64,000 nucleotides of DNA from Halorarum halophilum (lineage in GTDB: Archaea > Halobacteriota > Halobacteria > Halobacteriales > Haloferacaceae), in the NCBI RefSeq assembly GCF_013401515.1, contig NZ_CP058529.1, forward strand, positions 2,542,001 through 2,606,000. The letters run 5' to 3'. The translations under genes were made by a program, and so were the position numbers. Numbering within the stretch: the first letter of the stretch is position 1; each line of letters starts with the position of its first letter. The notes beneath the pieces were generated by a model. The model did no database searches. It was given only the letters and a program-made list of their open reading frames with translations, and was not told where the DNA came from. This document shows, in pieces, positions 40,001 through 42,876 of this stretch.

Positions 40001-40627
40001 ATCGACCCCAGCGAGATCGACGACGAGGCGCACAACATGGACATCGTCCGGACGTACCCGCGGGAGTTCTACGAGGCGACTCTGGAGATGGCCGACCCGG
40101 AGGAGGTGGACATCAGGATCGGCGACGACACGCTCGGCACCGACGACGAGTACCGCGGGTTCCACCACACCCACGACACCACCGACATCGCGCTCGGGCC
40201 GGACCTCTCGGCGTACAAGACGCTCGGCTCGATGATGGACAAGATGGACGCCCAGCTCGCGCTGGCGCGGAAGCTCCGCGCGGTCGACGAGACCGACGTG
40301 GCCGAGCGCGTCATCGAGTACCACTTCCTGCCGGACCTCATCGGGAACCTCCGCGCGTTCTCCCGACAGGAGACGCGGTGCCTGGACTGCGGGGAGAAGT
40401 ACCGCCGGGTGCCGCTCACGGGCGACTGCCGGGAGTGCGGGGGACGGATGACGCTCACGGTCCACCAGGGGTCGGTGAACAAGTACATGGACACCGCCAT
40501 CCGCGTCGCCGACGAGTTCGACTGCCGCGAGTACACGAAACAGCGCCTCGAGATCCTCGAACGTTCGCTGGAGTCGGTGTTCGAGAACGACAAGAATAGG
40601 CCCTCGACCATTGCAGATTTCATGTGA
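37094..40627 (+). CDS. polC: DNA polymerase D large subunit (DP2)
   Basis: The catalytic subunit of the archaeal replicative polymerase PolD. The 1177-residue product has no intein. It shows [20 protein letters not shown] and [15 protein letters not shown] in the N-terminal half, a zinc-binding region ([34 protein letters not shown]), the double-psi-barrel active site [20 protein letters not shown], and a final Cys4 zinc module (CLDCGEKY ... CRECGG). A GTG start is used. The last codons ([10 protein letters not shown] from 40594) are AT-richer than the rest. A second, GC-rich version of the C-terminus is stranded at 42838-42876, which suggests that the 3' end was replaced by integration. The small subunit is not in the window. 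Confidence 0.95.
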   Translation: [1177 protein letters not shown]

Positions 40628-40887
40628 AACCAGTAGAGGAGACGGACCTACGCCTGCAAAAAACCAAGCAGAAAAACGCCCTATCTAATTATACTTTGCA
40701 AGTCTACTTCGCGTATCGTCCCTCCTCAGGTTGAATGGTAAGTACAGAGAATCAACATTTCACCGCCAGCTCCAGCGGCCACTCCTAAAGTAGTGATTCG
40801 CGCAGACTACGTTGTACACGGGCTGCCAGTTGGGTTCCCTCTCTGGTTGACTATCCCCTCCCGCGAAATTCGGAGCCCAGATTGGCC

Positions 40888-42615
40888 TCACTCGGGATCT
40901 CGAGACCCGGGTATCGCCATTGCAACCCCGTAATACGCCCAAAGCAGGAGAAGAACGTTCCCAGTTGCGACGAGGAGCAGGACGAGACTGCTCATAATAC
41001 CGACTTCAGTGGGGACGTTGATAAGCGAAAATTCGCCAACCTGAATAATCGACATCGTATCGTGAATCTCCGAGCGTTCCGGTCGTTCTCGCCAGTAGTT
41101 CCACGCCAGAAGCAACATGGTGCCGAGCGCGAGGGACACGATCGCTCGAAGCCACGCGCGAGCATACCTCAGCGTTCCTGCGGCGTCGGCGAGGTGATGT
41201 GGGGAGAATCCACGACGAAGGTCGCGCGTACGTGCGACGAGAACCAGCGCAGCAGGATACAGGTACGTCGCGAGGAGCGAGAGGGTAGCGAAGGCGATGA
41301 GGGCGAGGAACGGGTCTATCGGTGTCCTCGAAAGCCAAGCCGGCCAGACGGCGATCAAGAGGTTGTAGATATTACGAGCGAGATACCACGATCCGACGAC
41401 GAATGCTGGCACTCCCGTCAATACATTACCGACCACCGCGTGCGGCCACGAGTTCTGACTATTCCAGATAAAGAGGAACAGTAGTGGGGGGAGTCCATAC
41501 ACGACCCAGAGCCCGATAGCTCGCACCCCGTCGGCGATGAGTCCCCACAGCGGGCCGAACGATGGGATGGTGGTGTTCGTCGACGAGTCGTTAGCGCGGA
41601 CGAGTCCGGCCACGTAGCCCATCAGCAGGACGACGGACGGGACCGACCAGAATGCGCCGAGCAGGACGGCGACGAGGATGGTTTGCCCGGAGCGGATGTT
41701 CTGACTGACGAACGTGACTACCTCAGAGTCTAGCCGCGAGTGGAGGTGGTCCCCGAGCGAGAATTTGTCCCGTGGCGGGACAGAAACGCGGCCGAGCGCG
41801 GCGTATCCCACCAGGAAGATGGCGAAGCTCAGGAAGCCCCGGAGCAGTTCAAGCGACTCTCGAACAGCCTCGACGAGGATGGGAACGTCGACTGGAACGA
41901 GGACAGAGGCGACCAGTTGTGATGGCATGAGTAGAACGAGCGTCCCCACGAACCATGTGAGGACGAATACGATCCAGTTCCGGGCGTAGGTCAGGCTTCG
42001 GAGAATCGGACTGAGGTCAGAGAACGAAAAGCCGTCCGAGAGTGTTCCACGGGCAGCGAAATTCAACAGGGCGGCTGGACCCACATACATGGCGAACAGT
42101 AACCCGAGGAGGGCCGGGTCGACCAGCACGCCGGCTGTAACCTGCCCCGGTGCGGAGATCCCGATGTCGAGGGCAGTGTACAGTTGCAGGAGAAACGAGA
42201 CATTCCCGAGTAGCGAACTGAAGATCGCGAGGAGGAGAGCGCTGCTACTTTCCGACTCGAAGATGGAGAGGTACCCTGCAAACGCGACGAGAATGTATAC
42301 AGTCCAGATTACATAAGCTCGGACACCGTCGAATACCAATGCGACCCAACGGTCGAATCTGGGCGTGTCCGAAGGGTGCGGCGTGACGTCCTCTCCGGGA
42401 GCGGAGGGTGGAACGTATCTGAGAATCCGGACGAAAAAGCCCATCACCAAGAAGCTCGGTATGACCAGCCAGACTGCGTAGCCCCAGAGCAGTCCGCCGA
42501 GGAGAAGAGTCGGTCCGATGTTCGGTATCGAACGGACGTCTTGAGCAAGAGTCGAGGCGAACTGCCGGAGGGTAGTGCCTGCCTGCAAGAAATCGGCTGG
42601 AATCTGCACGTACAA
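40888..42615 (-). CDS. DUF4013-like polytopic membrane protein
   Basis: A 575-residue membrane protein with about a dozen hydrophobic helices. It contains two repeats of the DUF4013-type pattern: a helix, then a 'GFFVRILRYV...F.RWVALVFDGVRAYVIWTVYIL' arrangement (~60-125), and again FGPLWGLIADGVRAIGLWVVYGLP (~355-380). Such proteins are common in haloarchaea and have no known function. Codon use is visibly AT-richer than the surroundings, and the gene is the only one between the two polC 3' ends, so it is probably cargo of an integrated segment. Confidence 0.8.
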   Translation of the reverse strand: MYVQIPADFLQAGTTLRQFASTLAQDVRSIPNIGPTLLLGGLLWGYAVWLVIPSFLVMGFFVRILRYVPPSAPGEDVTPHPSDTPRFDRWVALVFDGVRAYVIWTVYILVAFAGYLSIFESESSSALLLAIFSSLLGNVSFLLQLYTALDIGISAPGQVTAGVLVDPALLGLLFAMYVGPAALLNFAARGTLSDGFSFSDLSPILRSLTYARNWIVFVLTWFVGTLVLLMPSQLVASVLVPVDVPILVEAVRESLELLRGFLSFAIFLVGYAALGRVSVPPRDKFSLGDHLHSRLDSEVVTFVSQNIRSGQTILVAVLLGAFWSVPSVVLLMGYVAGLVRANDSSTNTTIPSFGPLWGLIADGVRAIGLWVVYGLPPLLFLFIWNSQNSWPHAVVGNVLTGVPAFVVGSWYLARNIYNLLIAVWPAWLSRTPIDPFLALIAFATLSLLATYLYPAALVLVARTRDLRRGFSPHHLADAAGTLRYARAWLRAIVSLALGTMLLLAWNYWRERPERSEIHDTMSIIQVGEFSLINVPTEVGIMSSLVLLLVATGNVLLLLWAYYGVAMAIPGSRDPE

Positions 42616-42837
42616 CCATGAACTTCGATTTCTGGAAAGGATTGTTCCCTAGTGCAAACTGGTTAATAACCACCTGATGTGTAGGCCACACCCCATTCAG
42701 GGTCAGAATCACCGACTAAATACGACGAATCACTGACCGCACCGCTCTCGAAGGCCAGCCAACAACTCGCTGGTCGGCTACTGCGGGGTTCACGTCAAAA
42801 GAGCGACCGGTTGGACTTCAACTTCGAAGGTGATCTC

Positions 42838-42876
42838 GACAAGAACAAGCAGAGCGGGATCGCGGACTTCATGTGA
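42838..42876 (+). pseudogene. Displaced 3' end of polC
   Basis: Thirteen codons, [12 protein letters not shown] plus TGA, in high-GC haloarchaeal codons. They align with the last codons of the intact polC ([12 protein letters not shown]). No upstream coding sequence continues it, so it is a remnant. Its GC-rich codons make it the better candidate for the original end of polC in this lineage. Confidence 0.65.

Follow-up and report, generated by a model that had tools for sequence, protein, structure and literature searches.

Very probably, positions 40597-42845 of the Halorarum halophilum sequence studied here are the relic of a site-specific integrative element in the 3′ end of polC, the gene for the large subunit of the replicative DNA polymerase; the copy is a decayed one and not an active member of its kind. 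A preliminary description of the window (the whole stretch of DNA that was analysed, 64,000 nucleotides) had proposed that the end of polC was replaced by an inserted segment and its original end stranded downstream. That reading, which gave both ends with the right positions and letters, was largely right and is supported by relatives. The relevant features are as follows.

37094-40627, plus strand: polC, DNA polymerase D (PolD) large subunit DP2; frame intact; Pfam PolC_DP2_N, central and cat domains, E 1e-116 to 1.7e-137
40588-40596, plus strand: att core CGACAAGAA on the polC side (attL), read directly from the sequence
40597-40627, plus strand: replacement tail from the element, nine codons and a stop, left arm of the att site; fits the element-tail pattern and shares 30 of 33 bases with element L114
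40628-42836, no strand assigned: decayed insert body, GC 57.7%, without integrase
40888-42615, minus strand: gene for a DUF4013 membrane protein, the lone sizeable gene of the insert; Pfam PF13197, E 1.8e-27
42837-42845, plus strand: att core CGACAAGAA on the far side (attR), read directly from the sequence
42837-42876, plus strand: stranded original polC end, 12 residues and a stop, attached to no polC; found by pattern match

The polC of the window ends in RPSTIADFM followed by a stop. The core CGACAAGAA precedes both polC ends at a spacing of 2,249 bp, and two 18-mers that are 83% identical, ATTGCAGATTTCATGTGA and ATCGCGGACTTCATGTGA, lie in the same 2,249-bp register as the cores. Two shared words had been offered as possible att cores; CGACAAGAA holds up as the core, whereas TTCATGTGA recurs because both tails encode DFM-stop and is no part of it. 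When a degenerate pattern for haloarchaeal polC ends was applied with up to two mismatches, its single match in the 64-kb window was 42844-42876, and the stranded end is also the sole match in the genome from which the window comes (G000). GC content falls from about 66-68% near the polC end to 51-65% over the insert, a drop that the preliminary description had suggested looking for.

The stranded ending is the norm. An NKQ-type end, the type stranded in the window, occurs in 344 of 391 haloarchaeal genomes, and the NKQ tail is found at polC itself in 72 of 80 polC loci taken from genome contigs. In family f1, two tables compared by eye place the canonical end at polC, with G000, G267, G297 and G108 as the exceptions. 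Genome G026, of the same genus as the window, carries a normal, stranded-type end at its polC, and the window's stranded end matches it at 92% identity over 39 bp. An empty site can be aligned at base level in Haloferax, where 488 bp beyond the stranded end of Haloferax massiliensis (L033) align at 91.6% identity with the sequence beyond polC in Hfx. denitrificans (L072); the base-level comparison is this Haloferax pair, the window's own genus being represented by the G026 polC end. The right flank of the window is unlike that of its relatives, so that an empty site is not demonstrable there base by base.

Relatives at the same codon retain what the window copy lacks. The polC of H. massiliensis ends in NRPSSLAEFM, a normal-type end and stop lie stranded 6.6 kb downstream, and the gene for a tyrosine integrase of 431 aa (Pfam E 1.8e-17) begins roughly 70 bp away from that displaced end. 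Counting H. massiliensis, 12 genomes carry elements of 1.4 to about 16 kb at the same polC codon (that of G108 is split over two contigs), each with a whole or half-decayed integrase and an AT-rich tail of the window type, and in all 12 the integrase gene lies 70-91 bp from the stranded polC end. The H. massiliensis integrase was searched in the 391 genomes, and the 30 loci inspected were the best of the matches listed; among these, all ten integrases at least 60% identical to the query have a stranded polC end, and none of the 20 that are at most 50% identical has one within its locus. A second family (146 genomes, partly overlapping) added two integrases above 60%, which came to light once this pattern was already recognised and likewise have a stranded end, and a 49%-identical one with no stranded polC end; a third family (125 genomes) yielded no new integrases of the kind. 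Combined, and again among the matches listed, the association with polC is 12/12 at 60% identity or more and 0/21 at 50% or less. The ten polC integrases from the first search group on a single branch (support 100/100) of a 31-integrase tree, and their hosts belong to four families. Judged by sequence, these integrases appear to be a monophyletic clade dedicated to polC across at least four haloarchaeal families.

The preliminary description had also called for a search for circular elements with an integrase and the replacement tail. Integrated elements of this description were found in the 12 genomes, but no circular form was: the tail-DNA, attP and host-end patterns each matched 0 stretches in IMG/VR, and a search of IMG/VR with the integrase alignment returned no relative of the polC clade. 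With a single integrase as query, the sole IMG/VR match was Halorubrum tailed virus 27 (HRTV-27), whose integrase, at 43.8% identity over 80% of the query, is the best viral relative found; it falls outside the polC branch of the tree, and its locus (L082) has no polC end. Plasmid and phage collections gave distant integrases only. ARAGORN, run on 20 sister-integrase loci that are not at polC, detected one tRNA (L103).

What unites the elements is the design of their ends. Gene content was considered as a unifying feature and rejected, since the ten integrase-bearing elements compared share the integrase only; primase-polymerase/helicase genes occur in some of them. One polC element (L120:172-5005) contains an apparent type I restriction-modification system. 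The tails that the elements supply are of the same kind in all 12, [RK][PA][ST][ST][IL][AG][DE][FY]M, at times with a few extra residues, and the window's tail fits this left-arm pattern. The seven-base core CGACNNN is the same at both sides in 10 of the 12 integrase-bearing elements (the exceptions are L115 and L118), and host-specific variants of it (GACAAA, GACCAC, GACACG, GACACC) match between sides. A profile of the left arm, that is, of the tail DNA, built each time without the element under test, was found inverted in the right arms of ten of ten elements, mostly at an equal distance from the core, with a summed score of 75.8 against a maximum of 14.9 in 1,000 shuffles; taken singly, three of the ten are non-significant (L114, p 0.18; L115, p 0.09; L121, p 0.05). 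Two elements found later have the inverted motif in the same place, albeit weakly (p 0.07 and 0.04, simple shuffles). The tail DNA and its inverted counterpart thus flank the core as the two arms of an inverted repeat, and the DNA that encodes the polymerase tail is therefore probably also a binding arm of the integrase. The inverted right-arm motif was sought in the window insert and is absent (p 0.68), which deletion would explain. With neither integrase nor right-arm motif, the window copy owes its membership to its tail, core and stranded end.

The interior of the window insert bears out two further statements of the preliminary description: no integrase was found in 40628-42836, and the gene between the two polC ends does encode a DUF4013 membrane protein. 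This protein has no tblastn match in 83 related polC loci, and its gene is either cargo or a later arrival. Beyond the stranded end, 43387-45174 (plus strand) is an apparent fusion, by Pfam, of an FttA N-terminus with KH domains to the beta-CASP/C-terminal half of RNase J; its halves match two separate genes elsewhere in the genome at 62% and 78%, an HxHxDH motif was not seen in its translation, and the fusion likewise has no tblastn match in the 83 related loci. From their translations, we take the neighbours at 45427 and 46691 to be ketopantoate reductase-like and sulfatase-like, respectively.

Several stages of decay can be seen in other genomes. The 1.4-kb element of G119 (L116) has an integrase with two stops, and that of G037 (L121) a truncated one. 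Both polC ends are kept and the integrase is absent in the window, G408, G003 and G012; the right-arm motif is gone from all four, so these inserts would be immobile. G003 and G012, which belong to one genus, have homologous flanks and both ends without an integrase, and their interiors differ, a histidine kinase and response regulator in one case versus a BAT-type regulator in the other; the pair formed by the window and G408 shows the same pattern in a different family. G408, from the window's genus, has a replacement tail at polC; the strict polC-end pattern found no stranded end there, and blastn located a decayed one (L122:4484-4522, ...SGIADFV), 87% identical to the window's over 39 bp, which lies 1.8 kb from the tail beyond intervening sequence unlike the window's. 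Since the window and G408 share tail and stranded end and differ in their interiors, the insertion probably predates their split, the interior having turned over since. The displacement of the original end by 2.25 kb, as first described, is correct for the window; the distance is so short because the window copy is deleted, and the relatives range from 1.4 to 16 kb.

The tail-DNA pattern of the elements is present in 17 of the 391 genomes, ten with an integrase, three with a stranded end only (G000, G003, G012) and four with neither. These last four (G183, G356, G345, G377) have an element-type tail and no stranded end in the sequence available, which for G345 and G377 stops at the contig end after about 1.6 and 6.8 kb. 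Loci L126 and L127 similarly have RP-type tails and no stranded end within 12 kb, so a tail of that type alone is no proof of insertion; none of the six was counted as an occupied site, and they may be later decay stages or ordinary variation. Whole genera (L129-L148) have the DP2 tails NKASKLGDFM, NKPSRLDDFM or NKPTSIEDFM with no stranded end within 12 kb. Such tails may go back to very old elements or may simply have diverged in the ordinary way, and the genera were left out of the insertion counts.

We propose that the element's tyrosine integrase, acting at the core CGACAAGAA, recombined an attP with the final codons of polC, which would have displaced the original polC end beyond the element. 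The final nine codons and their stop would now come from the left arm of the element, leaving an essential polymerase with a complete frame; restoration of the frame by the element had been suggested at the outset, and an intact frame with a replacement tail and a stranded end is what is seen. In the window lineage, integrase and right arm would then have been lost and the inside replaced or eroded, in an order that we infer from the relatives, leaving the polymerase to carry the element's tail permanently.

In a different history, a tandem duplication of the polC end would have come first, an unrelated insertion would then have moved the far copy away, and the copy left at polC would have changed independently. 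Repeats of this sort, short and in tandem, do occur 58-156 nt past the polC stop in Haloferax, Haladaptatus and others (within family f1, in G211, G189, G081 and G022), which lends this history some colour. Yet polC keeps its normal end in the tandem cases, whereas in the window it is polC itself that has the diverged end; the window's tail DNA agrees with that of elements in other genera, with as many as 30 of 33 bases shared, and the arrangement with an integrase has been seen 12 times, so that we regard such a duplication as very unlikely. That the 40 downstream bases resemble a polC end by chance is less credible by far, to the point of being negligible: beyond the shortness of the sequence nothing speaks for it, none of 100 window shuffles matched the pattern, the reversed pattern had no match across 391 whole genomes, the core lies in the same register, and the sister genome G408 has a decayed counterpart.

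A closer competitor, though still an improbable one, treats the insert not as a decayed full element but as a small non-autonomous cassette that the integrase of another element moved in trans. The four integrase-less inserts are indeed all short, at 1.5-2.8 kb, and in each of them the usual right arm is missing and one or a few ordinary genes are present. However, the right arms of G000 and G408 disagree although their insertion is seemingly shared, and the half-decayed integrases of L116 and L121 demonstrate that such losses happen in place.

Tandem repeats about 80-120 bp long, in which roughly the final twelve polC codons recur together with the trailer while polC itself ends normally, occur at L043, L046, L051, L052, L072 (~10600-10860), L055 (~10750), L124 (~1773) and L125 (~8303), in several genera. 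The Haloferax downstream repeats were considered as old scars and rejected; they resemble a polC end and trailer duplicated in tandem and were accordingly left out of the count.

The codons that are swapped fall within a presumed PCNA- and primase-binding peptide. The C-terminal PIP motif of DP2 has been given as Qxx[L/I]xxF (PMC7776575, available part), and the available part of a study of P. abyssi describes a C-terminal PIP-box that has no consensus Q, binds both PCNA and primase and is not needed in vitro for full-length synthesis (PMC7101311). The host-type end fits the motif, as QSGIADFM in the stranded end and also at polC in relatives. In 16 occupied genomes (the 12 with an integrase plus the window, G408, G003 and G012), the Q is lost in 16/16, and the I/L, the F/Y and the following M are each kept in 16/16. 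If selection favoured a functional contact with clamp or primase while a recombination site also had to be preserved, this set of kept and lost residues would result, although function of the new tail in clamp or primase binding is something we infer from the motif. A bolder and rather doubtful reading is that the tail swap retunes PolD recruitment, perhaps favouring the element's primase-helicase genes, and that tails have been fixed repeatedly after the death of the element; a part of the cellular replisome would then have been rewritten many times by mobile DNA.

Archaeal integration into the 3′ ends of protein-coding genes, with the stop replaced, is already known from the available parts of two accounts (PMC6563490, PMC8371274). 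In Thaumarchaeota, 14 of 68 mapped elements lie in such 3′ ends, with a short direct repeat as at polC, and in a worked example element DNA likewise takes the place of the final codons and the stop; the targets named in the available part of that survey are a Zn-finger protein, an AsnC regulator, EF-2 and others, with no DNA polymerase among them (PMC6563490). Unlike those elements, the polC elements combine one integrase clade, one essential gene across families and a presumed functional peptide. The haloarchaeal virus BJ1 also has a protein-coding attB, but in the HMG-CoA reductase gene, and its account names no polymerase target in the part available (PMC8371274). Casposons, too, recurrently use the end of an essential gene, the 3′ end of EF-2; according to the same partial source they rely on Cas1, terminal inverted repeats and target duplication (PMC6563490), in contrast to the tyrosine recombinase of the polC elements, and no Cas1 was detected among 28 element proteins scanned against Pfam. 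Suicidal integrases, described in the available part of PMC8371274, resemble those at polC in being archaeal tyrosine recombinases, but have the att site inside the integrase gene, not 70-91 bp outside it. We found no report of polC or another DNA polymerase as a dedicated integration target in the open literature, subscription papers and preprints being outside that coverage, and within it the dedicated integrase clade, the essential polymerase target and the tail that outlives its element are apparently new.

An essential replicative polymerase thus appears to serve as a dedicated landing site, and each landing alters the peptide that in Pyrococcus binds clamp and primase. The elements provide a natural set of clamp-tail variants that is testable in Haloferax, and a stretch of DNA under two constraints, as a probable recombinase site and as a protein tail. 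Stranded polC ends offer a marker for finding haloarchaeal integrative elements, and some caution is due in interpreting PolD C-terminal differences among haloarchaea, which can arrive horizontally. In two occupied genomes (L115 and L116), the polC match is broken upstream by a gap of about 1.5 kb that looks intein-like, so that mobile DNA of two types may share a single gene.
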